Below, one piece after another: positions 30,091 through 64,000 of a stretch of 64,000 bases of DNA. Where the stretch lies: the NCBI RefSeq assembly GCF_900890425.1, contig NZ_CAAHFG010000001.1, positions 1,054,001 through 1,118,000 of the forward strand, read 5' to 3'. The notes below the pieces were generated by a model. The model did no database searches and was not told the DNA's origin. It saw only the letters and a program-made list of their open reading frames with translations. Both the position numbers and the translations under genes were made by a program. Every line of letters begins with the position of its first letter. Positions within the stretch are counted from its first letter, which is position 1. This DNA comes from Pontiella desulfatans (GTDB taxonomy: Bacteria > Verrucomicrobiota > Kiritimatiellia > Kiritimatiellales > Pontiellaceae).

Positions 30091-30462
30091 CTATGGACTG
30101 AACACATGGTGCCAGATGGAGGTTCCGTCGATCAGGAAGTCCAGCCGGTCGGAATCCCTGCTCCAGGCAATGTCGGCCTTCGCATTGGCAGGGGCGTTGG
30201 TGTGGGCGGGCAGATAGAGCAGGTTGAGCCAGGCCCGTTTCCCGGCCTCGCGGTAGTAGATTTTATAGGAGGGCTGGTTGTCGTAGTAATAAAACGTCTT
30301 TAGCCGCGCGGTCTTGCTGCCGTCGGGGGCTTTAAGCGGACCTGTTTCATTGCTCGGCGGTGTCAGGATCCGGTAGGCGATGAACACCACGAAAAAAACA
30401 AAAGCGATCTGCCCGATCTTGGAAAAATCTAACACCGTTCGCTTTTTGTAGCTACGTTTCAT
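30091..30462 (-). CDS. Small membrane-anchored protein, function unknown
   Basis: 123 residues: a basic N-terminus (KRSYKKRTVLDFSK), one membrane segment (IGQIAFVFFVVFIAYRIL) and an extracytoplasmic domain of about 85 residues rich in aromatic residues (FYYYDNQPSYKIYYREAGKRAWLN). No family recognised. It lies 88 bases before the EF-hand gene and may be co-transcribed with it. Upstream DNA carries short GAATATCGAA repeats. Confidence 0.65.
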   Translation of the reverse strand: MKRSYKKRTVLDFSKIGQIAFVFFVVFIAYRILTPPSNETGPLKAPDGSKTARLKTFYYYDNQPSYKIYYREAGKRAWLNLLYLPAHTNAPANAKADIAWSRDSDRLDFLIDGTSIWHHVFSP

Positions 30463-30690
30463 GGAAGCGAATATCGAATATCGAACCGGGAATGTCGAAT
30501 CCCGAAGGCAACTCCTTCCAAGGTCACCTTGTTTCTCATTTTTTTGTTGGTTTCATAAATGACTCGCAGAGGAGTGAAGGTGTTAAGAAACTAGTTAATT
30601 GATGATGAGTGGATGGGTTTGACAAAGCATGTTGTAATTAATAAAAGAGGGGAGCGAGTTTGAGTATTGGTTTGGGCGATGTGAAATAAT

Positions 30691-31767
30691 ATGCATTTTG
30701 ACAAACAATCGAAAGATGAGTGCTGCGGGTCTGGGGAGCCAGCAAACCGGCAAGGTTCCCCGGGCCTTTCCATACCTGCGATTCCGGTTGTGCCTGCTAC
30801 CCAAGCCATTGATCGGTCTTTGCTCCAAAAGCAATATCAGGATCTTGCATGCCAGCACCTTGGCGAGTTGCGCCAGAATCTCTTTTCCGAATTCACGGGG
30901 CTTCATTTTCATATTGCCTGGGCACCGCTACATCCGACATCCGAGGAGCCCTTGTCCTCCACGGCATGCAATGTCTGTAGCCAGCTATCAGGCACACCCC
31001 CTCCGCCGATATGCTCCGCTTGCAGTCGGCATCAACATGAGCTTGCCGGGCGCGCGGGCCAGAATGGCCACCGGTTCACGTGCGGGATGGGCGTAAGCAA
31101 CTATTGGTTTACGATCACGGTTCGGGATGTGGTGGTCGGAACCGCGTTCGTGCAGGCGCTCGACAAGGCCAACCACATTCTTCGCAATCAGCTCTTGAAG
31201 AACCCCGCGAGTGCCGAGGCCCGCTTCCTTAGCCGGTCTGAGTTCGACGACGCGGCGCGCCTACTGCAGTTCATTGCCCAAAGTGCGGAAACTTCCGTTC
31301 TGGCCGAGCTGAACCAGACGGATGTGGCACAGGCCCGACAGGCGATGGGCGCCCTGCAACAGGAACAGGATCGGTTGAAAGAGCACATCCATCGTCTAAT
31401 GCCGGAGGAACACCGGCAGTCTGAGCAGTTCCTTCCACCGCCACCTCTCGTGCAACGTTTGCTTGAGATGGTGCACCAGCATTATGCCGAACCGATCACG
31501 CTCCAGAAATGTGCCCGCGACTTGCGGCGAAACTCAGCATATCTATCCGATCTGTTCTCCCATACGGTAGGCTTGCCCTTCAAGGCCTACCTCACCGAGC
31601 TTCGCCTGGAAAAAGCCAAGGAGTTGCTTGGCCATCCGGACAAGAACGTGAACGAGATTGCGCAGGCAGTCGGCTATGCAAGCGCGCATCGCTTTCGCCT
31701 TGCCTTCAAGAAGCTGACCGGCTTGCCTCCCCGGGCTTGGAGCGAAGCCATGCGGCCTTCGAGATAG
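30691..31767 (+). CDS. AraC-family regulator with PocR-like sensor domain
   Basis: 358 residues. Residues about 45-195 resemble the PocR ligand domain (PF10114): Cys pairs CNVC and CSAC, then HRFTCGMGVSNYWFTITVRDVVVGTAFVQAL. A short helical linker leads to an AraC-type double helix-turn-helix at about 250-355 (ITLQKCARDLRRNSAYLSDLFS; NVNEIAQAVGYASAHRFRLAFKKLTG). PocR domains sense small diols/hydrocarbon derivatives in known regulators. Possible target: the lipoprotein gene 190 bases downstream. Confidence 0.88.
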   Translation: MHFDKQSKDECCGSGEPANRQGSPGLSIPAIPVVPATQAIDRSLLQKQYQDLACQHLGELRQNLFSEFTGLHFHIAWAPLHPTSEEPLSSTACNVCSQLSGTPPPPICSACSRHQHELAGRAGQNGHRFTCGMGVSNYWFTITVRDVVVGTAFVQALDKANHILRNQLLKNPASAEARFLSRSEFDDAARLLQFIAQSAETSVLAELNQTDVAQARQAMGALQQEQDRLKEHIHRLMPEEHRQSEQFLPPPPLVQRLLEMVHQHYAEPITLQKCARDLRRNSAYLSDLFSHTVGLPFKAYLTELRLEKAKELLGHPDKNVNEIAQAVGYASAHRFRLAFKKLTGLPPRAWSEAMRPSR

Positions 31768-31960
31768 GCACCTCGCAAGAAGTTCCCTCTTGAGGATCTA
31801 AACAAACGTCCTCTAAACCAAACTTATGCACCCTATGCTGAGTGGTGTCGGGCAGAGTATACTCATTCGACAGAAAGGGTTCGGGGGCAACGGTGCTCCC
31901 GGAGGTCGATGCGACGGGTGGTCGGGCCGCCATTCACAAGCAAACTACAAGGAGCCAACT

Positions 31961-32431
31961 ATGAAAACTAGAACAAAGTGGTCGAGCATATTAAAGCAAA
32001 CACTGATCGTGGCATTTGGTGTGGTCTGCATGGCCGGAATGATGGGGTGTGGTGGTGATGATGGCGGCGGCGATGAGGGGATAAATCTTGAAGGTACTTG
32101 GGAATATAAGCTAACAGCCGCAGGGATTAGTGCTACTGACACATATTTAGTCCCCTTTCCTGCTGAGCTGAGTAAAGTCGTGGATTTAAAAACGACTATT
32201 CCCTACGATGGAAATGTGTTTGAACTCGAAATTTACGGAGGAGGAAAGAAAATTCGTTTAGACATGGATCTAGCGGATGGTGATCGGGCGGAGCTAGACG
32301 GTGATATTCATAGTAGTACGTCCATGAGCGGTACCGGCACATATTACCCATCGGATGTTTCCTTTCCGCTTGATCAACAGGTTGCAGTGGAAATATCTAT
32401 CGCCTTTACCTGGAGTGCCAAAAAATTATAG
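31961..32431 (+). CDS. Putative lipoprotein, function unknown
   Basis: 156 residues. Signal sequence with a lipobox-like VVCMAGMMGC, cysteine at about residue 29, followed by a Gly/Asp linker (GGDDGGGDEG) and a beta-rich domain (LEGTWEYKLTAAGIS, FELEIYGGGKKIRLDMDL). This resembles lipocalin-like or DUF-type lipoproteins; no specific family. AAGGAGCC precedes the ATG. AT-richer than neighbours. A hairpin follows its stop. Confidence 0.75.
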   Translation: MKTRTKWSSILKQTLIVAFGVVCMAGMMGCGGDDGGGDEGINLEGTWEYKLTAAGISATDTYLVPFPAELSKVVDLKTTIPYDGNVFELEIYGGGKKIRLDMDLADGDRAELDGDIHSSTSMSGTGTYYPSDVSFPLDQQVAVEISIAFTWSAKKL

Positions 32432-32461
32432 AGTCTTGAGCTAGTGCACTGCAATTCCACG

Positions 32462-32486
32462 CGCACGTTTCCTTTCGGAACGTGCG
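32462..32486 (+). terminator. Intrinsic terminator after the lipoprotein gene
   Basis: CGCACGTTTCC/GGAACGTGCG arms with one bulged T and a TTTC loop, then TGTTTTGTG. Thirty bases past the lipoprotein stop. Confidence 0.7.
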
Positions 32487-32681
32487 TGTTTTGTGCGTCA
32501 GACATGATCAGTGACTGGGAGAAATGTTCCCAGCGGGCGGCGATGAAGCAGACCCGGATAGCATTGGTTTGGAGTACGAGGCCGCAATGCGCAGCAGTTA
32601 TCAATCCCATAGTCTCTGGGGAGGTTTGCATTACGCATTCTAGCAACTTGGCAGTATGGGGCGGTCGGCTCTTTGACTTGC

Positions 32682-32756
32682 TCCGCCGGGGCCTTCTTGA
32701 AGAAGCGGCTGACGTTCCAGTTGCGGTCGACGTCGCGCCAGGAGAGGAAGAGCATG
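32682..32756 (-). pseudogene. Duplicated 3' fragment of rseP
   Basis: These 75 bases match 33501-33575, inside the 3' end of the intact rseP, at 74 of 75 positions. Read on the minus strand it encodes MLFLSWRDVDRNW and onward through KKAPAEQV, then diverges. It has no start region of its own. The 337-base stretch from the lipoprotein stop to the nucleotidyltransferase holds this, the terminator, and nothing else recognisable. Confidence 0.85.
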
Positions 32757-32768
32757 TGGAGATGGGCG

Positions 32769-33224
32769 CTATTCGGCCTTGAGCTTTTTCAGCTCAATCA
32801 CATCGACGGCATCTTTGGGACGCCCTGTTGCGGATTTATTGGCAATGAGATCATCGAGTGAAAGAATTTTAAGAGGGATACCGTCGATCTCGCATGGTTT
32901 GCAATTTGCGGAAGCCGCCTTGAATGCCAAGCCCGTTGCTCCCGTAATGATGTCAATCCGGCAAGGGGCGATTCCTATTTGGAAAACCGTATCGTCTTTG
33001 CAGAGATCCTCGGCGGTCAGACCATGTAGCGGTGCCCCGAATCGGTTGAGCGCCCGCAACACGGCTAGGGCATTTGTTTCGGAGGGACACACCCAGAGAT
33101 CGATATCCATCGTGGCCCGAGGATATCCGTGTGCCGCCAAGGCGTAGGCACCGACCAGGATGAACTCAACCCGCTCGTCGTTTAACGCTTGTAATATGTC
33201 TCTGTAATCGTCGTTCAGGATCAT
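32769..33224 (-). CDS. Nucleotidyltransferase-fold protein (AbiEii/MNT-like)
   Basis: 151 residues. The nucleotidyltransferase core is visible: FILVGAYALAAHGYPRATMDIDLWVCPSETN with the Gly-Ala/Ser loop and the DxD pair, then RIDIITGATGLAFKAA supplying the third acid, and a helical C-terminus LDDLIANKSATGRPKDAVDVIEL typical of the DUF6036/MNT-like group. Such proteins are often solitary or part of toxin-antitoxin style pairs. It lies between direct repeats of the rseP 3' end, suggesting it arrived by insertion. Confidence 0.8.
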   Translation of the reverse strand: MILNDDYRDILQALNDERVEFILVGAYALAAHGYPRATMDIDLWVCPSETNALAVLRALNRFGAPLHGLTAEDLCKDDTVFQIGIAPCRIDIITGATGLAFKAASANCKPCEIDGIPLKILSLDDLIANKSATGRPKDAVDVIELKKLKAE

Positions 33225-33492
33225 GGGAGGGACTCAATGCGGCAACTTCACGGGTAAGAGGCCATACCAGGCCCAAGCGATAGCTCACCGAGCCTTCGAC
33301 ATAGTTGTCGTCTTCATGGTTGCCTAACCGGCCTTTAGAGGTGTGTTGCCTTTGCATGGAGGAATAATGCCATTCGATCAGTCCCGATGCAACATCCACA
33401 ACGTCTGAAATTGGCTGCCAACCCCGAAAACCTAAATGGATAAATCGCGAATGCTTTTTTCTGTTTCGGCTATTCCGTCGGTGCCGGTTCAT
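33166..33492 (-). CDS. Possible small protein upstream of the nucleotidyltransferase
   Basis: An open frame of 108 codons whose middle part (GWQPISDVVDVASGLIEWHYS and YVEGSVSYRLGLVWPLTREVA) reads like a real protein, unlike the basic first 13 residues, which overlap the rseP end. It overlaps the nucleotidyltransferase start by 59 bases. No clear ribosome site and no family recognised. It could be the partner of the nucleotidyltransferase, a remnant, or chance. Confidence 0.3.
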   Translation of the reverse strand: MNRHRRNSRNRKKHSRFIHLGFRGWQPISDVVDVASGLIEWHYSSMQRQHTSKGRLGNHEDDNYVEGSVSYRLGLVWPLTREVAALSPSHDPERRLQRHITSVKRRAG

Positions 33493-34843
33493 CGACCTGT
33501 TCCGCCGGGGCCTTCTTGAAGAAGCGGCTGACGTTCCAGTTGCGGTCGACATCGCGCCAGGAGAGGAAGAGCATGGCGGAGATGAGCAGGATGGCGAAAA
33601 TGTTCACCAGCGTGCCGACCACCTTGGGATGCACCTTGCGTTTGGTGATGCCTTCCCACAGCGCGAAGCAGATGTGGCCGCCGTCGAGCACGGGCAGCGG
33701 CAGCAGGTTGAGTACGGCCAGGTTGATGTTGATGAAGCGGATCAGGCCGATGGCGTAGGGGAGGCCGAGCTTCAGCGCGAACCAGATCATGGTGAAGATG
33801 GCTACGGGGCCACCGAGGCCGCCGGCGGCCTGCTTGGCTTCGCCCTTGGTGGTGAGCGCCTTGAGCAGGCGGAAAATCTTCATGGCGTCGCTCTTGATCT
33901 GCGTGATCGGGTTGCCGGACATCGACCATGGCAGGGCGTTCGGGTCGCCCGGGGTGACGCCGATCATCACCTTGTCGTATTCCTCGATATATTTGGGGGT
34001 GACGGTGAGCGTGAGGGTTTCGTCCTTGCGCAGCACGGTGAACTCCGTCGGTTGGTCGCGGCGGGCCTGGACGGCTTCGGGCAGCTCGTGCCAATAGTGG
34101 ATCGGTTTGCCGTCGATCTGTGTGACGAGGTCGCCGGTCTTGAGCCCGCCATCGCCTGCGGGTTCGCCGGAGCGAATGTCGGCCAGCAAGGGCCGCAGGG
34201 CCTGGCCCACGCCGCTGAAGCCGATGACTTCCTGGTCGATTTCCTCGCCAACAAGTTCAAGCTGGTTGGTGGTGCCGGCGGAGACATAGTCGATCGAAAT
34301 GCGCCCGGTATCCTGCAGTAGCATTTTTTCCACCATGATGTCGTACCAGCTGGTGACTTCGTTGCCGTTGATGGCAATGATTTCATCTCCGGCCTTGAGC
34401 CCTTTGGCATGGCAGACGCTGTTGGTTGAAACCCCGCCGACCACGGTGGTGTCGGGGGCCTTTTCGGCGGTGGATACAATCAGGGCCAGCGGGATGGCGA
34501 AGAGAATGTTGCAGAGGGGGCCGGCAACGGCGACGGCAATCTTTTTCCAGGGGGAGACCTCGGGCAGGGTTGCGCGGTCGTTCTCGTTGTCGCCCTGCAT
34601 CTTTTCCATGCCTTCCGGGTCGAGCTGGGGCAGGGAGACATAGCCGCCGATGGGGAAGGCGCCGATCTTGTAGACGATGCCGTCGACTTCCTTTTTCCAA
34701 AGGGCGGGGCCCATGCCGATCGAGAAGGCCTCGATCACCAGTCCGCATTTCTTGGCGACGATGAAATGACCGAATTCGTGGACGAAAATGGTGATGCCGA
34801 AAAGGAATAGCATCATGGCGATGAAGAAGAGTGTTTCGAGCAT
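33470..34843 (-). CDS. rseP: Site-2 intramembrane metalloprotease RseP
   Basis: 457 residues. Zinc site HEFGH at 22-26 in the first membrane segment; two PDZ domains around 120-300 (LKAGDEIIAINGNEVTSWYD, LKTGDLVTQIDGKPIHYWHEL); the second catalytic motif LPVLDGGHICFALWE in the C-terminal membrane part. Cleaves anti-sigma factors and leftover signal peptides. It follows cdsA by 21 bases, the common uppS-cdsA-rseP order, but dxr is missing from between. Its last 25 codons are duplicated 0.8 kb downstream. Confidence 0.95.
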   Translation of the reverse strand: MLETLFFIAMMLFLFGITIFVHEFGHFIVAKKCGLVIEAFSIGMGPALWKKEVDGIVYKIGAFPIGGYVSLPQLDPEGMEKMQGDNENDRATLPEVSPWKKIAVAVAGPLCNILFAIPLALIVSTAEKAPDTTVVGGVSTNSVCHAKGLKAGDEIIAINGNEVTSWYDIMVEKMLLQDTGRISIDYVSAGTTNQLELVGEEIDQEVIGFSGVGQALRPLLADIRSGEPAGDGGLKTGDLVTQIDGKPIHYWHELPEAVQARRDQPTEFTVLRKDETLTLTVTPKYIEEYDKVMIGVTPGDPNALPWSMSGNPITQIKSDAMKIFRLLKALTTKGEAKQAAGGLGGPVAIFTMIWFALKLGLPYAIGLIRFININLAVLNLLPLPVLDGGHICFALWEGITKRKVHPKVVGTLVNIFAILLISAMLFLSWRDVDRNWNVSRFFKKAPAEQVDEPAPTE

Positions 34844-42034: not shown

Positions 42035-42159
42035 AAGAAATTCCTCAGAAAACGCGCTACTATAGGCCAGCCTCCAATAATTTCCGCAAAAAATTGAATA
42101 TAATTTCCCTTTGAGAATGAATGTTGTCATCCATGCGTTGGGCGGGTAACGTCACATAT

Positions 42160-42639
42160 ATGAAACAGAGGGTTTACATTGAGACCAGCGTTGTTAGCTA
42201 TTTGACCGCCCGTCCGGCCAAGAATATCATCGTGGCCGGTCACCAGATGGCTACCCGCGATTTTTGGGATGCTTTGGGGCGGTACGATGTGTATGTGTCT
42301 GAGCTTGTTTTACTTGAGGCAGCAAGCGGAGACGAAGATGCTTCCAAGAAGAGGGTTGATGCCTTGGCTGGATTTTCCTCCCTCGATATTACAATTGAAT
42401 GCAAGGAACTTGCAAAAAAGCTCGTTTTGGATGGAGCCATCCCCGATCCATTCCCTGAGGATGCATTGCATATCGCTTTGGCGGCTGTACACGGCATTGA
42501 TGTGATTGCCACTTGGAATTTCAAACATATCAACAACCCGGAAACGCGGGGGAAAATTAGGCGGGTGCTGGAAGCGAATGGATACGGGTGCCCGGAGATT
42601 TGCTCGCCCGATGAATTCTTAGGTGACGAAAATGAATGA
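42160..42639 (+). CDS. PIN-domain protein (VapC-like putative toxin)
   Basis: 159 residues. VYIETSVVSYLTARPAKNIIVAGHQ is typical of a PIN subfamily with Glu in place of the first Asp; a later acid pair lies in PDPFPEDALHIALAAVHGIDVIATWNFKHI. PIN domains are Mg-dependent RNases. Its stop overlaps the start of a 58-residue partner, giving toxin-first order, the reverse of usual vapBC. Confidence 0.82.
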   Translation: MKQRVYIETSVVSYLTARPAKNIIVAGHQMATRDFWDALGRYDVYVSELVLLEAASGDEDASKKRVDALAGFSSLDITIECKELAKKLVLDGAIPDPFPEDALHIALAAVHGIDVIATWNFKHINNPETRGKIRRVLEANGYGCPEICSPDEFLGDENE

Positions 42640-50602: not shown

Positions 50603-51877
50603 ATGAATACTCCTGAGAAACTGTTCCATACGCTGTTGGGGCTTGGTGATGACTGGGAAATCACCGAACTCGAATTCGATAAAGACTCTGGCGAAGTACG
50701 GTTGCGGATCCATGAACTCCCATGCCTTCTACCGCAACAACGTTGCCCTGACGATGATGGTGAAACCGATCTGTATGACCATGGCCGCGAGCGGGAGTGG
50801 CGGCATTTGAATGTCTTTGAGCACAAGTGCTACATCCAATCACGGCTGCCGAGAATGCGCTGTAAATCATGCGGGAAGATTTTTCAGGCGAAAGCCCCAT
50901 GGGAAGGGTTGAACCTTCACTTTACGGCTGCATTCGAATCCATGAGCTTGTTGCTGATGCGCGAAATGCCGGTTAAAAAGGCGGCGGAGTTTATCCAGGA
51001 AACAGACACGCGGCTGTGGCGCATCCTGGCTCGGCATGTTGCGGTGGCCTACAGGCAACTCGACTTCAGCGAAACGACGTGTGTCGGGGTGGATGAACTC
51101 GCCTGCCGCAAGGGCCATAACTATGTGACCATCTTTGCCGATTTGGTAGCCAAGCGGGTGCTGTATTCCGTCCCGGGGAAGGACTCCTCTACCTGGAAGG
51201 CCTTCGTCAAAGAGCTGGAGAAACACTCCGCAAAAGCAGAACAAATAGAGTGTGTGAGCATGGATATGTCGGTGGCATTCAAAAAAGGCGTTGCCGAAAC
51301 CTGCCCACAAGCCGAAGTGGTATTCGACAAGTATCATCTCATCGCCAAGACGAACAAGGCCGTCGGGGATATTCGACGCGCAGAGATCCGCCGGGGCGGT
51401 TGCTACAACGATTTGAAGCTCACCCGCTGGATCTGGCTGAAGAATCCGGAAAACCTTACCGAGCAACAAGCCGATCGCCTGAAACGGATCGACCAGGAAA
51501 ACTTAATCACGGCGCAGGCTTATCAAATGCGTCTATGCCTGCAAGACATCTACCAGCTCCCCCGTGTAGAACGCGCAGAAAGCCGTCTTCTGGCCTGGTG
51601 CCGATGGGTTCGGCAGAAAGCGAAGCATGCCCGCTACGGTCTTTTATCGATTATGGTCAAGGTAGCTATGTGCATTGAAAAGCATCTTGCGGGAATCCTG
51701 AAACACTGGGAACACCGAATTACCAATGCTTATATGGAAGGGATCAACAATATGTTCCAGATGGTCAAGCGCCGTGCGCGCGGATATCGAAACGATGAGA
51801 ACTTCATTATGATGATTTACTTCGTCGGCAGTAAGCTGAAACTACCTGCTGTGGATGAGCCTATCCATTCAAAGTAG
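50603..51877 (+). CDS. ISL3-family transposase
   Basis: 424 residues. N-terminal zinc-binding part with spaced Cys (C76, C87, C90: MRCKSCGKIF), a helical DNA-binding segment, then the DDE catalytic core: GVDELACRKGHNYVT (D164), CVSMDMSVAF (D221), FDKYHLIAKTN (D242) and a C-terminal Glu in YMEGINNMFQMVKRRARGYRN. Full length with no frameshift, so it is probably active. Confidence 0.95.
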   Translation: MNTPEKLFHTLLGLGDDWEITELEFDKDSGEVRLRIHELPCLLPQQRCPDDDGETDLYDHGREREWRHLNVFEHKCYIQSRLPRMRCKSCGKIFQAKAPWEGLNLHFTAAFESMSLLLMREMPVKKAAEFIQETDTRLWRILARHVAVAYRQLDFSETTCVGVDELACRKGHNYVTIFADLVAKRVLYSVPGKDSSTWKAFVKELEKHSAKAEQIECVSMDMSVAFKKGVAETCPQAEVVFDKYHLIAKTNKAVGDIRRAEIRRGGCYNDLKLTRWIWLKNPENLTEQQADRLKRIDQENLITAQAYQMRLCLQDIYQLPRVERAESRLLAWCRWVRQKAKHARYGLLSIMVKVAMCIEKHLAGILKHWEHRITNAYMEGINNMFQMVKRRARGYRNDENFIMMIYFVGSKLKLPAVDEPIHSK

Positions 51878-54865: not shown

Positions 54866-57800
54866 TTATTCATTCCAATCTATATTCGAAACCATGATCC
54901 GGAAGAACCGGTGGCTTTCCGGCAGGGTGCCCTCGAAATAGTGGATGGTTGATCCGGTTCCGGGTTTGGACACAAATTCGGAATCGCCGACATCGCTCCA
55001 TGGCCCGGCGGGCGACTCCGCCGATTGCACGGTGTAGCAGCGCCCGGCAAGGGAGTTCCATGAAATGCTAAGGCCTGCAACGGAAGCTGTATCGGCGATT
55101 TTAAAGATGCTCGCGGAGTCGGCCGGGTCGGTGCCGGCAATCCATTCCTTCCAGGCAGGTTCGCCGTCGCCGTCGCGGTCGGCGAGGTCGAACAGCTCGA
55201 AGTCGGCGGCGGTCCAGCCGGTGGTGTCGTGGTGCTCTTCCAACCAGGCGCGCGGCGTGCCGCTGCTGGTGGATAGGCCGGCGGGGGCGTCGCCTTCAAC
55301 CTGGATATAGTCGATGTCGAACGAGCCGGCACCGCTGTCGAGCAAGATTCGCTCGATGGAGCCAACGCGCTTGGCCAAGCCGCCGATCTTGTTTTGCATA
55401 AAGAGGGCGTCGCCCATGGCGAGGTTTCCGTCGATCCAGAGGCTGTAGACCTGCTTGACGACGTTTGCTTCGATGCGGATCGTGCACCAGGTGTTGGACG
55501 TGTAGTTTTTGAAGTCGGCTGCGTTGTCCGAACGGTAGTAGTAGCGGAGCTTCCCGTTCGCTGCGAAGCCGACCTTGCAAGCGTCGCGGCCGTTGCCGTC
55601 GAAGAGTTGGATGTAGAAGCTGTTGGAGACCTGGTTCGGTTTTACCCGGAACTCGCACGCCACGCTGCCTGCCTGGGGTGCGAAGGTCGCTTCCACTACG
55701 CTTCCGGTGACGGACGTGTTGTTGAAAAGCACGGCCAGCGGCTGGCTTTCGGAGCCCTCGTAGAGTTCGCCGGGCATCAGGCCGCGGCCGATGGCGCCGC
55801 CTTGGTGGAAGTTTTTGATGTCGCGGTAGCCGGGGCGGATTCCGGAATCGTCCTTGGTGGTTTGGCTCTGCCCGCCGTTGTCGATTTGCACGACGTAGAC
55901 GCCGGACTTGGTGCGGATGTCGTGCGACTCGCAGTTCATGAACACGTTGTCTTGGAGGGTGTAGTTTTCGGTGTTGTCGTCGAGGTGTGCGCCGTTGACC
56001 GTGCGGGAGGGGCCTGTTGCCCACCAGTTCACGGTGTTCATGTTGTAGATCCAGTTTTTGTAGATGATGCCGCCGCTGGAGTCGCTCTTGGTATGGATGC
56101 CGCCGCTGTCGCGGCACCACACCGCCGCGTCGTGGATGCGGTTGTATGAGATGTTGGGCGCCTTGAGGGCGGTTGCCGCGGACTCGGCTCCCCATCCGAT
56201 GTTTATTCCAAGTCCGCCGGTGTAGGCAATTTCGTTGTGGACGATTTGGATCGAATCCGGCCAGAAGGCGAACATGGCTCCGCCGCCGGAATAGATGGCG
56301 CCCATGTGGAAGAAATAGTTGGAGTCGAAGGTGTCGTTCTTGCTGAGGTTGTTGGGGTTTTGGGTCTTGCTCCTGGCTTCGTCGATGTCGTATCCGATGG
56401 CGGTGTCGGCGATCTCGGAAAACACATTTCCGACGATCATGTTGTCCTGGGTTCCGGTGTCGAAGTTGATCCCGTTGCCGCCCATCTGGCGGAAGATGCA
56501 GCGCTCGATCCGCACGTTGCGGATTTTCTTGAAGTAGAGCGCCGCCGGATTGATCGTGTCTTTGTCTGCGGGGGTGATGTGCAGTCCCGCCTGCCGCTGC
56601 ACCATGCCTTCGGTTTGCGGAGCGTTCCATGAGCTATGCTGGAAGGTAAGCCCGAACAGGGTCGTGTTGGTGGTCTTCACCATGGAAAGCAGCCGTTCGG
56701 TTTTTGGCGCCACGGCCTGCATTACGGAAAGATCTTCGCCGGGGCGGGGCATGTAGTACACGGTGTCGGCATCCACATCGAGGAACCATTCGCCGGGGGT
56801 GTCGAGGAACGAGAAGTGGTTTTCGAAGTAGAACGACGGCTTGCCGCTGATGGAGCTTGAAGGCTTGTCCTGAACGTCGAAATGGTTGGTGCGGTCGGGC
56901 TCCATCGGCGTCACATTGGCATAGGTGCCGCTGGTGCTGATGCTGGCGATCCGGACGCGCGAAAGGGTGAAGGAACGGGCCAGCACCAACTGGACGCGGC
57001 TCAGGTTGGACAGGTTGCGGACGCCGTCCACATAGGCGTGTTCAATCTGGATCTTGTCGGTCGTGTTGTTGTTGGCCTCGATTCGGTTTTCCTGCCCGGC
57101 TTCGGGATAGCGGGCGCGCTGGGCCGGCTTGTTGTTGACGTAGAGCTGGATGAATTCAAAGCCGCCGACACCGGCCTGCCAGATGCCGTTGCTCAGCGGC
57201 GTCCATCCGATGATGGGTTCGCCGCCTTCGAGCACCGGGGCTTCGTTGGGATAGTTGCGGTAGACCACGTTGAAATAGTTGGTTCCGGAATCGCGCTCGT
57301 CGAATTCGATGGTTTGCTCGATCGGATAGGTGCCGCCGCGAAGGTAGACAACGATGTCGTTGGTCATGGCGCCGTTGATCAGCCGCACGGCGTCGCGCGC
57401 CGCTTCGATGGTACGGAAGGGCGCGGCTTCGGTGCCGGGATTGGCGTCGTCGCCGACGGCAGGATCAATGAAGAATTCCGCCTGCGGGTTGTAGGGCCCT
57501 GGTATGATGAGATACCCTTCGCGGTCGAGGGCGATCTCGCCGCTGCCGTTGAGGGTGATGCCTTCCAGTTGCTCTTCCGTCAGTCCGTTTTCATCGGTGC
57601 CGAACCGGATGGAGTCGCTGCTTTCGGTAAAGTTGGCAATGGCCAAGTTGGGCGCAGTCCACGCCGTGCCGGAAAGGTTGGGGAAGGAGAGCTGGCTTGA
57701 ACTCATGTTTTGGAAATCAATGATGACGGAGCCGTTGACTTCCAACGATTGGAAACCGCCGTCACATCCGCCGGTCTCCAAGATCGTTCCATCATTGAAA

Positions 57801-59419
57801 ACCAGAGGCGAGTTGGCGTCGATTGCATTGTTGGTTGCCAGCCGGAGGGTTCCCGCATCGATGGTCGTGGCGCCTTGCCATCCATTTTCGCCGCCAAGGA
57901 TCAATAGGCCCTCTCCGGTTTTCCGGATGCTGGCGGTAGTGGTGCCGGCGCCTGATTTAATGTCGACGGTGCGCAAGGGGCCGACATCGATGGTGAGGTT
58001 TATATTGGATGCCAAGCCGAACCAGCCGGTGTCGATCGTCAGGTCGCCGCTGCCGGTAATGTTCCATCGGGGATCCGCGGCGTGGCCGGATTGCTGCATG
58101 AATGCGCCTTCTCCAGCCAAGACCAGGTTTCGCGAAGCCGCCTCCATTTGGATTGAATCATGCGAACCTTCCGTATTGTGGGCCAGGCTCAAGGTTGCGT
58201 TGGAGTCCACCGAAACCGCGACATCCTGCCCTGGATCCACAACCCGAAGCTCGGCGATGAAAGCATCTGCTGTGACCGTTGGTTGAAAGTTGTTCGACGC
58301 GAAGCTGGACTGGAAGGCCGCAACCTCGTTGCTGCCCGCAACGGTGTTGCCTGCCCAGTTTGCGGCGGTGAACCATAGGGGGTCGGCATCGCCCTGCCAG
58401 CTGCGCTCTGTGCCGGTCGGGGTGCTTGCTTCGGCAATCAGATAGCCGCTGCTGTTGAGGCTGGCGTTGGTTGCGCCGTTCAAGGAGATTGCCGCCAGCT
58501 GGGCGGCGGCCAGTCCATTGCCGTCGGTGCCGAACCGGATAAGGTCGCTCCCCTCGGTGAAGTTGGTGATGGCCAGGCTTGCGTTGGTCCAGAGGATGCC
58601 CGAGGAGTCGGAAAAAGAGAGCTGGCTTGTGCCAAGGTTTTCGAAATCGAAGGTCGTCGCGCCCGCGATTTCCAGCGTGGAGAAATCGCCGCCATAGCCG
58701 CCCGTCTTGAGGGAGGTTCCATGGTTGAAAGCCATGGGAGAGAGCGAAGAAACGGGCTGGTCCACTGCTAGCTGGAGGGTGCCTTTTTCGATAACGGTTT
58801 CACCGGCCCATTCGTTCGCTGCCCTGAGGATCAAGAGGCCGTCGCCGGTTTTTGTGACGCTCTTGGTTGTTGGGATCACTCCGCACCGCAGATCGATGGT
58901 GTTGCTGTCCGCATCGGCGTGAAGGATCATGTGGGGATCGAACCGGATGCTTGCGGAATCGACGATCAAGGTGCTGTTCGAACCCGTGACTTTCCACATT
59001 ACGGTGTTTGAGGAAGTGCCGGGATTAATGTCGTTGTCCTGCCATAGCTGTCCGCCGTTGCCGAGCCAGAGCCGTTTCCCGCTTTGTTGGAGAATGCCGA
59101 TGCCTTCGAGCGAGCGGATGCGGAATTGCCACTGGGTTCCGCCGCTCATTGTGATGTTTTTGGAGAGGTTTGCGCTGGCCTTGACCTGTTCGACCAAGAA
59201 GCTTTTGTTCATGTGCGGCTGCTTGTTGCCGGTGAAATATTTATTGAACACCATAACGTCGCCCGCTCCGGGCGGCTGGCCGGTGGTCCAGTTTGCAACC
59301 TGGGTCATGTTGCCGTTGATCTGGTTGCCCTTCCATGAACGGTAGGCTCCGTAGGCTGCTGGTTCCGCAAGCAGGAATGCTATCAGGGCCAAGCCTAGCC
59401 ATCTCATGGTGTATTTCAT
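54866..59419 (-). CDS. Giant exported PATR + GH141-like beta-helix protein (paralogue 1)
   Basis: 1,517 residues. Signal peptide (RWLGLALIAFLLAEPAAYG). Two N-terminal modules of about 300 residues each contain autotransporter-type beta-strand repeats (GDGLLILRAANEWAGETVIEKG-like and GEGLLILGGENGWQGATTID). From about 645 a right-handed parallel beta-helix opens with FFIDPAVGDDANPGTEAAPFRTIEAARDAVRL and VVYLRGGTYPIEQTIEFDERDSGT, as in GH141 fucosidases/xylanases. From about 1,235 a LamG-like domain, then an EF/TSP3-like Asp-rich segment (LADRDGDGEPAWKEW), then a conserved C-terminal beta domain ending HRFFRIMVS. No autotransporter barrel is present. It is 13 bases before the fucosidase. GH141 activity is inferred from layout only. 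Confidence 0.8.
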   Translation of the reverse strand: MKYTMRWLGLALIAFLLAEPAAYGAYRSWKGNQINGNMTQVANWTTGQPPGAGDVMVFNKYFTGNKQPHMNKSFLVEQVKASANLSKNITMSGGTQWQFRIRSLEGIGILQQSGKRLWLGNGGQLWQDNDINPGTSSNTVMWKVTGSNSTLIVDSASIRFDPHMILHADADSNTIDLRCGVIPTTKSVTKTGDGLLILRAANEWAGETVIEKGTLQLAVDQPVSSLSPMAFNHGTSLKTGGYGGDFSTLEIAGATTFDFENLGTSQLSFSDSSGILWTNASLAITNFTEGSDLIRFGTDGNGLAAAQLAAISLNGATNASLNSSGYLIAEASTPTGTERSWQGDADPLWFTAANWAGNTVAGSNEVAAFQSSFASNNFQPTVTADAFIAELRVVDPGQDVAVSVDSNATLSLAHNTEGSHDSIQMEAASRNLVLAGEGAFMQQSGHAADPRWNITGSGDLTIDTGWFGLASNINLTIDVGPLRTVDIKSGAGTTTASIRKTGEGLLILGGENGWQGATTIDAGTLRLATNNAIDANSPLVFNDGTILETGGCDGGFQSLEVNGSVIIDFQNMSSSQLSFPNLSGTAWTAPNLAIANFTESSDSIRFGTDENGLTEEQLEGITLNGSGEIALDREGYLIIPGPYNPQAEFFIDPAVGDDANPGTEAAPFRTIEAARDAVRLINGAMTNDIVVYLRGGTYPIEQTIEFDERDSGTNYFNVVYRNYPNEAPVLEGGEPIIGWTPLSNGIWQAGVGGFEFIQLYVNNKPAQRARYPEAGQENRIEANNNTTDKIQIEHAYVDGVRNLSNLSRVQLVLARSFTLSRVRIASISTSGTYANVTPMEPDRTNHFDVQDKPSSSISGKPSFYFENHFSFLDTPGEWFLDVDADTVYYMPRPGEDLSVMQAVAPKTERLLSMVKTTNTTLFGLTFQHSSWNAPQTEGMVQRQAGLHITPADKDTINPAALYFKKIRNVRIERCIFRQMGGNGINFDTGTQDNMIVGNVFSEIADTAIGYDIDEARSKTQNPNNLSKNDTFDSNYFFHMGAIYSGGGAMFAFWPDSIQIVHNEIAYTGGLGINIGWGAESAATALKAPNISYNRIHDAAVWCRDSGGIHTKSDSSGGIIYKNWIYNMNTVNWWATGPSRTVNGAHLDDNTENYTLQDNVFMNCESHDIRTKSGVYVVQIDNGGQSQTTKDDSGIRPGYRDIKNFHQGGAIGRGLMPGELYEGSESQPLAVLFNNTSVTGSVVEATFAPQAGSVACEFRVKPNQVSNSFYIQLFDGNGRDACKVGFAANGKLRYYYRSDNAADFKNYTSNTWCTIRIEANVVKQVYSLWIDGNLAMGDALFMQNKIGGLAKRVGSIERILLDSGAGSFDIDYIQVEGDAPAGLSTSSGTPRAWLEEHHDTTGWTAADFELFDLADRDGDGEPAWKEWIAGTDPADSASIFKIADTASVAGLSISWNSLAGRCYTVQSAESPAGPWSDVGDSEFVSKPGTGSTIHYFEGTLPESHRFFRIMVSNIDWNE

Positions 59420-59425
59420 AGTCGA

Positions 59426-62400
59426 TTACTCGGTAGGTGAAGCCACAATCCGGAAGAAGCGGTGGTTGTCGGGCAGGGTGCCTTCGAAATAGTGAATGGT
59501 CGAGCCGGTACCCGGCTTGTTGACATATGCGGCATCGGCAACATTGTTCCACGGACCGTCCGGGTTTTCGGCGGATTGCACCGTGTAGTAACGCCCGGCA
59601 ACGGAGTTCCAGGAAAGGCTGAGTCCCGAATTTGCCGCTGTGTCGGAGATCTTGAAAATGCTGCCGCTGTTGTTGGGGTCGGTGCCGGCGGTCCACTCTT
59701 CCCAGCCTTTCTTCCCATCGCCATCAACGTCGGCGAAGTCGAACAATTCAAAGTCGGCGGCAGTCCATCCGGAGGTGTCATGATGCGTGTCGAGCCAGCT
59801 CCGGGGCGTGCCCTGTTCCGTGGAGAGGCCGTAGGGGGCGTCGCCTTCGACCCGAATGTAATCGATGTCGAAATGTCCGGTGCCGTAGCTGTTGTACAGA
59901 TTGACGGCATCAATCGATTCAACGCGTTCGGCAAGGTTTCCGGTGCGCTGGTCGTTCATGAAAAGGGCGTCGCCCATGGCGAGGTTGCCGTTGACCCAGA
60001 CGCTGTAGAGCTGTTGTTCCACATCGGCCTCGACCCGGATCGTGTACCAGGTGTCGGTGGAATAGCCTCCCAGGTTTTCGTAGTTGTCGGTGCGGTAGTA
60101 GTAGCGGAGCAGGGCGCTTGCACTAAAGCCAACTTGGCAGGCTTCGCGGTCTTCGGCATCGCGGAAGGAGAAGAAAAGGTTGTTGCCGGTCTGCCCCGGC
60201 TTGACCCGAAACTCGCAGGAAACCCGCTCGCTTTGCGGAATGAAGGATTTGGATATATCAACGCCGACGTCGCCGCTGTTGCCATCGTCCATGCGCAGGC
60301 TGCGGTTTCCGCCGCCAGGAACATCGCTGATGCTTGCGGTGCAGCCGGAGGCCGTTGCTACGGAATATCCGGCCGGTGCGGCGCCCGTGGCCTCGCTGTC
60401 GAAGAGATCCTCGAAAAGGAGGGAGAGCGGGGCGGATGGTGCGCCAGTGTAGAGTTCGCCGGGCATCAGGTCGCGGCCGATGGCGCCGCCTTGGTGGAAG
60501 TTTTTGATGTCGCGGTAGCCCATGCGCAGCCCCGATTCGTCCTTGGTGGCCTGGCTCTGCCCGCCGTTGTTGAGCATGGTGATGTCGTTGACGCCCTCTT
60601 TCGTGCGGATGTCGTAGGACTCGCAGTTCATGAAGACATTGTCCTGGATGGTGTAGTTTTCGGTGTTGTCGTCGAGGTGGATGCCGTTGATGGTGCGGCT
60701 TGGGCCGGTCTTCCACCAGTCCACGGTGTTGACGTTGTAGATCCAGTTTTTGTAGATGACGCCGCCGCTGGAGTCGCTCTTGGTGTGGATGGCGCCGCTG
60801 TCGCGGCACCATACGGCGGCATCGTGGATGCGGTTGTAGGCCACGTAGGGCGCCTGGAAGCAGGTGGTTGCGTGGGTGGCGCCCCAGCCGAGGTTGAGGC
60901 CCAGCCCGCCGGTATAGGCGATTTCGTTGTGGACGATGCTGATCGAGTCCGGCCAGAAGGTGAACATGGCGCCGCCGCCATAGTAGATGTTGCCCATGTG
61001 GAAGAAATAGTTGGAGTCGAAGGTGTCGTCGAGGCTGAGATCCGCTCCGCTTTGGCCGCGCTTGTTGTCGATGTCGTAGACGATGCCGGTGTCGGCGATT
61101 TCTGAAAACACATTGCCGACCATCACGTTGTCGCGGGTGCCGACATCGAAGTTGACGGCATTGACGCCCATTTGGCGGAAGATGCAGCGTTCGACGCGCA
61201 CGTCGTTTATTCGCTTGAAGTAGACGGCCGAGGGGTTGACGGTGAATTTGCTGGCTAGCGTGATGCGCATGCCGGCCTGCCGCTGGGCCATGCCCTCGGT
61301 CGCCGGGGCGTTCCAGGCGCTGTGCTGGAAGGTGAGGCCGAAGAGGGTGATGTTTTCCGCATTCTCGATGGAGAGCAGCCGTTCGGTGGCCGGGGCAATC
61401 GCTTCCATTACGGAAAGGTCTTCGCCGGGGCGCGGCATGTAGTAGACGGTGCCGGTGTCGACATCGAGGAACCACTCGCCGGGGGTGTCGAGGAAGGAGA
61501 AGTGGTTTTCGTAGTAGAACGAGGGCGATCCGTCGAGCGGGCCGTCGGCGTTGAAGAAGTTGGTGCGCTCGGGCTCCATGGGGATCACCTTGTCGAAGGT
61601 GGCGTATTCCTCGATGGAGTCGATGCGCAGGCGGGCGAGGGTGAAGGAACGGCCGATAACCATCTGGACGCGGTTGAGGTTCGACCAGTTGCTGATTTGC
61701 CCCTTGTTGATTTTGACCTTCTTGTTGATTTTGTCGTTATTGAGGATTTCGTTTTCCTGTCCAGACTCCGGGAAGCGGGCGCGCTGGGCCAGCCTGTTGT
61801 TGACATAGAGCTGGAGAAATTCGAAATCGCCGACGCCGGCCTGCCAGATTCCGTTGCTGAGCGGCGTCCATCCAGTGATTGGAACTCCGCCTTCGAGAAT
61901 CGGCGCTTCGTTGGGATAGTTGCGGTAGATGATGTTGAACCCGTTGGTGCCGGAGTCGCGTTCGTCCAGTTCGATGGTTTGTTCAACCGCATAGGTGCCA
62001 CCGCGCAGGTAGACGACAATATCCTTGGTCATGGCGCCGTTAATCAGACGCACGGCATCGCGCGCCTGTTCAATGGTGCGGAAGGGTTCGGTCTCGGTGC
62101 CCGGATGGGTCTCGTCCCCGAGGGCGGGGTCGATGTAGTATTCCTGAATGGGCTCGGGCTGTTCCACCACAAGATAACCGTCGGCGTCGAGGGTGAGCTG
62201 GTCGGTGCCGAAGCGGATGGAATCGGTGCCCTGTGTAAAGTTGGTGATGGTCAGGGTCGGGAGCGACCAGGTTTCGGCGGAGCTATCCAAGAAGGCCAGT
62301 TGGGAGGTGCCGGCGTTGCCGAAGTCGAGGGTGGCCGGGCCGTTGACTTCCAGTGTGGAAAAAGTGCCGCCATGTCCGCCGGTTTCAAGGATCGAACCGG

Positions 62401-64000
62401 CATTGAGGATGAGTGCGGAGGAGGCATCCAGCGGTTGGTGGGTCGCGAACCGGAGCGTGCCGGCATCGACGGTGGTCTTACCCTGCCATTGGTTTTGTCC
62501 GCTCAGAATGAGCCGGCCGGCGCCGGTTTTTCGGACACTGGCCAAGGTGGGATTGCAGGCGGTATTGATGCCGACGGTTCGTTCTGCTCCCGTGTTGATG
62601 GTGAGGGCAACGTTGTTGGAAATGCTGAACTGCGCGGGGCTGATGGTCAGGTCGCCCGCTCCGGTAATGTTCCAAAGGGGATCGGCATATTCACCGCAAC
62701 CTTGTGCCAGGTGCCCTTGTCCCAGAATAGTGAGGGCCCGGGTTGCGGATGCCATCTCGATGGCGTGGTGGTTGCCTTCGGTGTTGTGGCCGATGTTGAA
62801 CAGGGTGTTGGAGACGATTGTGAGAACGACATCCTTTTCAGGAGCGAGCACCCGTAGCTCATCCACGCCGGTGCCTGCATGGATCGTCGGCTGTGCGTTC
62901 GGTGCCGAAAAGGGGGTGTCGAACAGCGCAACGGCATTGTCGGGGGGCACCGCGTTGCTGATCCAGTTCGAGGCGGTCTCCCATGCATGGCCCGAATCGC
63001 CGTCCCAGTGGTATTCGCCGACCGTTGCAAAGTCCGGGGCGAAGGCAAGGTAGCCGCTGGAGAGCAGGGCGAGGTTGGAGCTGCCGTTGAGGGTGATGCC
63101 CGCCAATTGGGCGGGCGAAAGTCCGCCGGCGGTAGTGCCGAAACGGATGGAGTCGGTGCCGGGCGTGAAGTTGGTAATGATCAGGTTCGGTGTAGTCCAG
63201 GCAATGCTGGAAGAGTCGGCGAATGCGAGATGGCTTGCGCCGGTGCTTTCAAAATCGAAGACTACGTGGCTGTTGACCGCCAGGGTGGAAAACTGGCCGT
63301 CGTGCCCGCCGGGTTCGAGCACGGCATTGTTGTTGAAGACCACGGGGGAGGAGCTGGAGACGGCCTGGTTGGTGCCGAATTCCAGCGTGCCGTTTGAAAT
63401 GGTGGTTGGCCCGCTCCATTGATTCTGCCCGTGCAGGATCAGCCGGCCGGAGCCGGTCTTCTTGATGCCGGCGGTGGTGGGGGATACGGCGGGGACAATG
63501 TTGACGGTGCGCGCCGAGCCGGCACTGATGGTGAGGGTCTGGCTTTCGATCTCCAGTGCGGCGGTTTCAATGGTTAGATCGCCAATGGGCTGCCCGCTGG
63601 TAATCAGCCAGGTCGAATCGCCATTGGCGTTGCGCTGGACGAAAGTGCCGTCGCCGATGATGGTCAGGTTTTTCCGCGCGGCGTTCATGGAGATGGATCG
63701 TCCATCCAGTCCCGTGTTGTTGTCCACGCTGAGCGAGGTTCCGGCGGGAATGGTGATGGTCACGTCTTTGGCGGGCTGGATGATTCGAATTTCGTCGATG
63801 ATGTCGGCGGCGGTCACGGTCGGTTGACTGTTTCCTGAAGTGAAATCGGTGGTGAAAATGGCCACGACATCTTCGCTTGGCACCCCCACCGACCAGTTCG
63901 ATCCGGTGAACCAATTGGCACTGGTGTCGCCCTGCCATTTGGTGGTCGAAATCGTGACGGCATGCGCACCGGAGCAAGCAAACGCAAGGAGCAGGGTTGG
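59426..64000 (-). CDS. Giant exported PATR + GH141-like beta-helix protein (paralogue 2), 5' end beyond the window
   Basis: Frame open to the right edge: beyond the first in-frame GTG it continues upstream through a signal-peptide core (PTLLLAFACSGAHA), then TKWQGDTSANWFTGSNW, so the start lies only a few codons outside. About 1,524 residues are visible. Same layout as its neighbour: two PATR modules (GSGRLILHGQNQWSG, GAGRLILSGQNQWQGKTTVD), beta-helix from about 615 (YYIDPALGDETHPGTETEPF), LamG-like region, DVDGDGKKGWEEW and C-terminal beta domain HRFFRIVAS. Its stop is six bases from the neighbour's start. Tandem duplication followed by divergence is clear. Confidence 0.8.
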   Translation of the reverse strand, partial: PTLLLAFACSGAHAVTISTTKWQGDTSANWFTGSNWSVGVPSEDVVAIFTTDFTSGNSQPTVTAADIIDEIRIIQPAKDVTITIPAGTSLSVDNNTGLDGRSISMNAARKNLTIIGDGTFVQRNANGDSTWLITSGQPIGDLTIETAALEIESQTLTISAGSARTVNIVPAVSPTTAGIKKTGSGRLILHGQNQWSGPTTISNGTLEFGTNQAVSSSSPVVFNNNAVLEPGGHDGQFSTLAVNSHVVFDFESTGASHLAFADSSSIAWTTPNLIITNFTPGTDSIRFGTTAGGLSPAQLAGITLNGSSNLALLSSGYLAFAPDFATVGEYHWDGDSGHAWETASNWISNAVPPDNAVALFDTPFSAPNAQPTIHAGTGVDELRVLAPEKDVVLTIVSNTLFNIGHNTEGNHHAIEMASATRALTILGQGHLAQGCGEYADPLWNITGAGDLTISPAQFSISNNVALTINTGAERTVGINTACNPTLASVRKTGAGRLILSGQNQWQGKTTVDAGTLRFATHQPLDASSALILNAGSILETGGHGGTFSTLEVNGPATLDFGNAGTSQLAFLDSSAETWSLPTLTITNFTQGTDSIRFGTDQLTLDADGYLVVEQPEPIQEYYIDPALGDETHPGTETEPFRTIEQARDAVRLINGAMTKDIVVYLRGGTYAVEQTIELDERDSGTNGFNIIYRNYPNEAPILEGGVPITGWTPLSNGIWQAGVGDFEFLQLYVNNRLAQRARFPESGQENEILNNDKINKKVKINKGQISNWSNLNRVQMVIGRSFTLARLRIDSIEEYATFDKVIPMEPERTNFFNADGPLDGSPSFYYENHFSFLDTPGEWFLDVDTGTVYYMPRPGEDLSVMEAIAPATERLLSIENAENITLFGLTFQHSAWNAPATEGMAQRQAGMRITLASKFTVNPSAVYFKRINDVRVERCIFRQMGVNAVNFDVGTRDNVMVGNVFSEIADTGIVYDIDNKRGQSGADLSLDDTFDSNYFFHMGNIYYGGGAMFTFWPDSISIVHNEIAYTGGLGLNLGWGATHATTCFQAPYVAYNRIHDAAVWCRDSGAIHTKSDSSGGVIYKNWIYNVNTVDWWKTGPSRTINGIHLDDNTENYTIQDNVFMNCESYDIRTKEGVNDITMLNNGGQSQATKDESGLRMGYRDIKNFHQGGAIGRDLMPGELYTGAPSAPLSLLFEDLFDSEATGAAPAGYSVATASGCTASISDVPGGGNRSLRMDDGNSGDVGVDISKSFIPQSERVSCEFRVKPGQTGNNLFFSFRDAEDREACQVGFSASALLRYYYRTDNYENLGGYSTDTWYTIRVEADVEQQLYSVWVNGNLAMGDALFMNDQRTGNLAERVESIDAVNLYNSYGTGHFDIDYIRVEGDAPYGLSTEQGTPRSWLDTHHDTSGWTAADFELFDFADVDGDGKKGWEEWTAGTDPNNSGSIFKISDTAANSGLSLSWNSVAGRYYTVQSAENPDGPWNNVADAAYVNKPGTGSTIHYFEGTLPDNHRFFRIVASPTE

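Follow-up and report, generated by a model that had tools for sequence, protein, structure and literature searches.

How did a second 3' end of rseP come to lie behind the intact gene in Pontiella desulfatans, with a nucleotidyltransferase gene between the two? We addressed this question in a window of 64,000 nucleotides, the whole stretch of DNA that was analysed, whose first letter is position 1. The original prediction had reported a direct repeat of the rseP 3' end, identical at 74 of 75 positions (32682-32756 versus 33501-33575), with copies 819 bases apart; recomputation returned the same identity and spacing, and the ungapped repeat grows to 91 nt (32666-32756 and 33485-33575, both on the minus strand; 85/91 identical). 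Allowing one gap extends it to 103 nt at 91.3% identity (E ~2e-36), the copy within the intact gene then reaching 33587. Since the next-best ungapped 91-nt match on either strand of the 64-kb window is 44/91, and since this is the sole pair found there at the settings of our repeat survey (35-300 nt, at least 78% identity, copies 250-3500 nt apart), the repeat is not due to chance. The gene itself (33470-34843, minus strand) is an intact rseP encoding a RIP metalloprotease, with 242 bits against the TIGR00054 equivalog (cut-off 147.55) and a match to Peptidase_M50. Read along the minus strand, rseP with its complete end (repeat copy 33485-33575) is followed by a 63-aa ORF (33166-33357), by the overlapping gene of a 151-aa nucleotidyltransferase (32769-33224) and by the second rseP end (32666-32756), which begins almost at the nucleotidyltransferase stop codon and reads on beyond the position of the rseP stop. 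Elsewhere, the window holds a PIN-domain gene (42121-42639), an ISL3-family transposase (50603-51877) and, at 54866-63889, adjacent ORFs of 1517 and 1487 aa that are diverged tandem copies, ~70-83% identical in blocks with a spacing of 4.6 kb.

The nucleotidyltransferase predicted between the two rseP ends was confirmed by a profile match to DUF6036 (PF19502; 27.4 bits, above the curated cut-off of 23.6), while the conserved 63-aa ORF overlapping its start had been overlooked. The AbiEii profile of Pfam scores 18.4 bits, below its cut-off of 22.5, and the AbiEii match in PADLOC has an E value of 0.0038. Residues D40, D42 and D91, which we take to be the catalytic residues of the nucleotidyltransferase fold, are invariant in 24 aligned sequences, and the predicted structure (pLDDT 87.5) has as its nearest PDB neighbour the MenT1 toxin (8an5_B; TM 0.67 by query length, E 3.3e-4). 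Homologues of the 63-aa partner occur in 45 of the 288 genomes searched in the class, and a nucleotidyltransferase match, in some cases interrupted, lies on the same locus in 28 of 30 loci fetched; the partner has no family match among the Pfam and NCBIfam profiles. Based on the predicted fold, the conserved pairing and the overlap, the two genes probably form a toxin-antitoxin-like pair. The cassette shares with the MenT and AbiEii toxins a MenT1-like predicted fold and a small partner gene, but it differs from them in its sub-cut-off AbiEii score and in a partner without family match; its toxin is putative. No carrier of the cassette was found among phages; viruses gave one distant locus, and plasmid matches are below 60% identity.

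Comparison with other members of the genus, which the original prediction had proposed, revealed the empty site. The usual neighbour of rseP in the genus encodes a 123-aa protein (30091-30462, minus strand in the window), and 24 genomes of the genus carry both genes on one contig; four others were left out, having them on separate contigs or lacking a match to the neighbour. In 21 of these 24, the gap between the matched stretches, taken from match coordinates, is 12-96 bp; relatives that all lack an empty site, named beforehand as the contrary case, were thus not encountered. The cassette next to rseP is a real insertion; the end of the intact gene is complete, and what lies displaced beyond the cassette is a leftover. 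Three genomes deviate: that of the window with 3010 bp, G021 with 567 bp and G024 with ~3.6 kb. The insert of G024 consists of three ordinary genes with no copy of rseP, and it was rejected as a case of the same kind, the absence of the repeat marking it as an ordinary insertion. G021, Pontiella sulfatireligans F21, has its own insert at the rseP site: a HigA gene (TIGR02607) in opposite orientation, truncated by the first 28 model positions at its junction with a displaced copy of the rseP end (63 nt, 92%). Some 90 bp separate this copy from the usual neighbour, as expected of the native end, and the insertion is independent of that of the window cassette. The window also contains extra DNA from the displaced rseP end to the usual neighbour (30463-32665), with an AraC/PocR-type regulator (30691-31767, plus strand) and an ORF that may encode a lipoprotein (31826-32431, plus strand). 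The 21 congeners with an empty site have no room for it between rseP and the neighbour, and it is apparently a gain separate from the cassette.

The same scar recurs around other cassettes of this family. When genome contigs were scanned, 80 loci emerged, 68 of them usable with a 400-nt flank on each side. A direct repeat (E up to 1e-5) flanks the cassette in 12 of the 68; of 380 pseudo-cassettes set at other positions in these loci as controls, 4 have one (p 7e-8). Leaving out L134, which holds two of the four control matches, gives p 3e-8. In five of the 12, the repeat is the edge of an intact neighbouring gene: a diaminopimelate-decarboxylase-like lysA (L126; 288.1 bits with the NCBIfam lysA profile, just below the cut-off of 297.9), a flavodoxin/ODP flavoprotein gene (L170), a short-chain dehydrogenase (SDR) gene in Desulfatibacillum alkenivorans DSM 16219 (L158), mnmA in genome G035 (L136), and the promoter and 5' end of ssrA, with the intact ssrA downstream (L123). 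The repeats of L134, L135 and L155 are intergenic or palindromic, and L147, L149 and L154 are the remaining three of the repeat-bearing cassettes. L120 was not counted as an intact-gene case, both of its copies being fragments of a PIN-like reading frame of which neither is complete. The window's own genome has two paralogous cassettes with displaced gene ends, one decayed (L002, ~80%) and one carrying the end of a DUF2752 gene (L006; 43 nt, 91%). The flanking repeat is absent at 56 of the 68 cassettes, as it is at those of G006, G012, G021 and G011. REP-type palindromes, in which we presume the GTAG beside the palindrome to be the REP motif, stand beside several inserts (L002, 1430-1480 and 2262-2335; L080, 2110-2155; L195).

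Displaced gene edges also accompany other cargo. In a neighbouring genus, three different inserts follow mnmA, each then followed by a displaced mnmA end: the nucleotidyltransferase pair in G035, a PNPOx-like gene in G030 (repeat of 45 nt, 96%) and a SOUL gene in G029 (70 nt, 89%), while only ~60 bp separate mnmA from the next gene where the site is empty, as in the relatives G040 and G036. The pheA gene of P. sulfatireligans is followed by a ParE cassette and a displaced pheA end of 38 nt. Duplicated 5' edges are found as well: in G030, a ParE-like gene precedes an amidohydrolase gene whose 5' end is duplicated (39 nt, 90%), and another gene precedes a second duplicated 5' region (62 nt, 95%). 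We scanned for displaced edges within 1.5 kb at purA, pheA, the amidohydrolase gene and rseP (30 loci each) and at mnmA (13 loci), one case each at pheA, the amidohydrolase gene, rseP and mnmA being known beforehand. Among usable loci, a displaced 3' end was found in 0/29 for purA, 1/29 for pheA, 2/29 for rseP, 3/12 for mnmA and 0/28 for the amidohydrolase gene, whose 5' end was displaced in 1/30; excluding the previously known cases, mnmA has 2/11 versus 0/85 control 3' ends (p 0.012). A weak 5' match of 23 nt was seen at pheA in L380. The junction of mnmA with an acyltransferase gene is a general hot spot for inserts; extra DNA without a displaced mnmA end was observed there in G037, G042, G038 and G033 (L432, L434, L435, L436).

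For other gene families the numbers are small. Repeats flank two of 19 usable ParE loci of the genus (30 fetched), one of the two being palindromic, and none of 23 usable response regulator loci (of 30). Of 24 HEPN loci read by hand, four have the gene pair flanked on either side by a direct repeat (L238, L246, L249, L251). The repeat survey listed several further repeat-flanked inserts in Kiritimatiellales genomes, mostly intergenic and likewise read by hand. Specificity for toxin-antitoxin genes was rejected as a general rule, because the PNPOx-like and SOUL genes bear the same scar at mnmA. Three arrangements were noticed alongside. In L249 and L256 (G014:C133), two MNT-HEPN type pairs and one ParE-like gene, identified by eye, form a row of toxin-antitoxin-like modules, with direct repeats of 50-53 nt between and around them. 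L304 (G021:C2 147802-152430) has adjacent repeat-flanked islets (61 nt, 93%; 123 nt, 90%), one with a PIN-like gene by eye, which suggests repeated gains at one spot. L278 (G000:C1 2027245-2029365) has a near-identical intergenic repeat of 121 nt, and by eye its adjoining ORF resembles a REP-associated Y1 transposase.

The differences between the two copies bear on their origin. At the window's rseP ends, one of 75 core positions differs versus five of 16 in the tail (Fisher p 5e-4); both tails still read as rseP tails (AEQVDEP and AEQVKEP), and the RseP tail is variable among relatives. As a single change in the core ill fits five in adjacent tails that remain recognisable, the two ends look like two alleles, and on the strength of these sequences we read them as alleles of different lineages rather than as a fresh copy that later decayed. 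The rseP tails of G021 (VDVTPPAEAPAPTEPPSGE and TDTPAE) and the mnmA copies of G029, where seven of eight differing sites are third codon positions, suggest that these pairs may likewise consist of two alleles. Differences pooled over the first, second and third codon positions number 15, 14 and 44 (p 2e-6 against an expectation of one third, 0.05 against one half). An excess at third positions was dropped as proof of two alleles, since one half could arise if a single copy decayed while the other stayed constrained, and at p 0.05 against that value the pooled test is not decisive. The PPC-like, pheA and lysA cases have no clear codon-position bias.

Our preferred explanation, to which we assign a probability of roughly 0.48, is an integrase-free capture of foreign DNA with a homologous anchor at a gene edge and a non-homologous join inside the same edge. 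Incoming DNA from another lineage, bearing its own allele of the gene end, would pair with the resident gene at the conserved edge, and its far end would be joined without extended homology slightly inside that same edge. The newcomer would supply the gene end, so that the gene stays whole, and the resident edge with the old neighbouring sequence would be left stranded beyond the cassette; no integrase would be required. The donor origin of the intact end, the one-sidedness of the homology and the joining step are what we infer from the insertions, displaced edges, recurrence and varied cargo observed above. Capture at a gene edge is favoured by the empty site in 21 of 24 congeners, the independent insert of G021, the two-allele-like ends, the repeats at 12/68 cassettes versus 4/380 controls and the diversity of targets and inserts. 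Against it, no donor was found: rseP, cdsA and the usual neighbour are absent near all 114 other cassette loci that were checked. The pooled codon positions, which decay of one copy might also yield, the three cases without clear bias and the 56 of 68 cassettes lacking a repeat count against it as well.

A doubtful but substantial alternative is that the cassette transposes within the genome, copying 40-170 nt of its target, and that the two copies diverge later. Such insertion with long target duplication has been published for restriction-modification genes (Nobusato et al. 2000, as cited in the parts consulted of PMC1643837, PMC3031569 and PMC4978471), and this precedent has the same architecture as our cases, with different targets at 5' and 3' edges here: a small gene set against an empty site, long flanking direct repeats of the target and, as described in those parts, no need for an integrase or transposase. 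The intergenic cases L251 and L246, with copies 96-100% identical over most of their length, also suit such duplication. As far as those descriptions go, our cases differ in cargo, which there is restriction-modification and here comprises the nucleotidyltransferase pair, ParE, HEPN-MNT, a HigA remnant and non-toxin genes, and in copies that often differ like two alleles. Simple duplication accounts poorly for the window's rseP tails, which differ far beyond the core, and for the in-frame three-base gap between the mnmA copies of G035 (L136, gapped alignment). Moreover, no conserved element termini were seen at the cassettes, the distances from repeat to gene vary and cassette similarity barely passes the genes.

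Integrative elements often enter gene 3' ends, rebuild them and leave a displaced copy, and the original prediction took the locus for such an att-like footprint. It is supported as to the insertion, the complete gene end and the displaced copy, but not as to an integrase attachment site. If an integrase supplied in trans had brought a non-autonomous element into the gene end, this anatomy, a rebuilt end with the native end displaced, would result; recurrent sites (mnmA 3/12 in one genus, rseP 2/29) and displaced mnmA copies that start close together, at positions 88, 91 and 67 of the last 150 nt, would agree with it. Nevertheless, this reading is weak because the targets differ, 5' ends are used too (ssrA, the amidohydrolase gene) and an integrase is not seen: as predicted, a scan of window proteins around the site, which are part of the window's ORFs, recognised no integrase domain. 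In other genomes, proposed as a place to look for the same segment with an integrase, one cassette family adjoins many unrelated genes, and neither phages nor closely similar plasmids carry it. At 13 rseP and mnmA sites with 2-20 kb fetched, no displaced end lies farther out besides the known one of G029. Compared with 3'-end integrative elements, our cases have the rebuilt end and displaced copy in common, but no recognised integrase, an insert of ~0.8 kb, unrelated targets and 5' edges as well. We consider an integrase footprint an unlikely explanation here and unlikely as a general cause, while the landing of inserts at mnmA keeps alive the idea of a specialised mechanism that is supplied in trans and uses certain sites repeatedly.

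It is quite improbable that the repeats were spread rather than created, by a repeat-flanked cassette excising as a circle through homologous recombination and re-entering the same gene elsewhere by a single crossover. Direct repeats do allow such excision, and it would account for two-allele copies and for the repeated use of one gene end; it leaves the first origin of the repeats without account, however, and ill fits different inserts at one site (HigA versus the nucleotidyltransferase at rseP; the nucleotidyltransferase, PNPOx-like and SOUL genes at mnmA), and no circle was observed. Coincidence through dispersed repeats, paralogues or assembly error is hardly credible: L134, with its two of four control matches, L135, L155 and L195 are by eye palindromic or dispersed intergenic repeats, but differing copies make a collapsed or duplicated assembly unlikely, the scar is present in the isolates P. 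sulfatireligans F21 and D. alkenivorans DSM 16219, and 200 kb of E. coli MG1655 yielded no pair among those listed at survey settings.

The capture we favour is reminiscent of homology-facilitated illegitimate recombination (de Vries and Wackernagel 2002), as described in the parts consulted of PMC4437187 and PMC11751169, in which the second end is joined via microhomology (PMC4437187). Common to both, as far as these descriptions reach, would be a homologous anchor on one side, a non-homologous join on the other and a foreign gene at a 3' end; our cases additionally retain a brief duplicated piece of the anchor edge, and a preference for such short duplications would be an extrapolation beyond the published process. 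That integrase-free capture of single genes at gene edges is general across phyla, with toxin-antitoxin-like cassettes as its most visible cargo and mnmA and rseP as recurrent sites, is a tentative proposal that we hold to be possible rather than probable.

Among the entries listed for our searches of an open library, outside which most subscription papers fall, we saw none reporting toxin-antitoxin or nucleotidyltransferase cassettes bordered by displaced edges of neighbouring genes. According to the part consulted of one review (PMC2654758), toxin-antitoxin cassettes are highly mobile and it is not understood how acquired ones become fixed. The question touched here is how cassettes of one or two genes, toxin-antitoxin or other, move without a recombinase of their own. 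Displaced gene edges can be searched for as scars of such gains; if this scar is general, it would provide a genome-wide finder of recent single-gene acquisitions that also shows the foreign gene end and tests one-sided homology.
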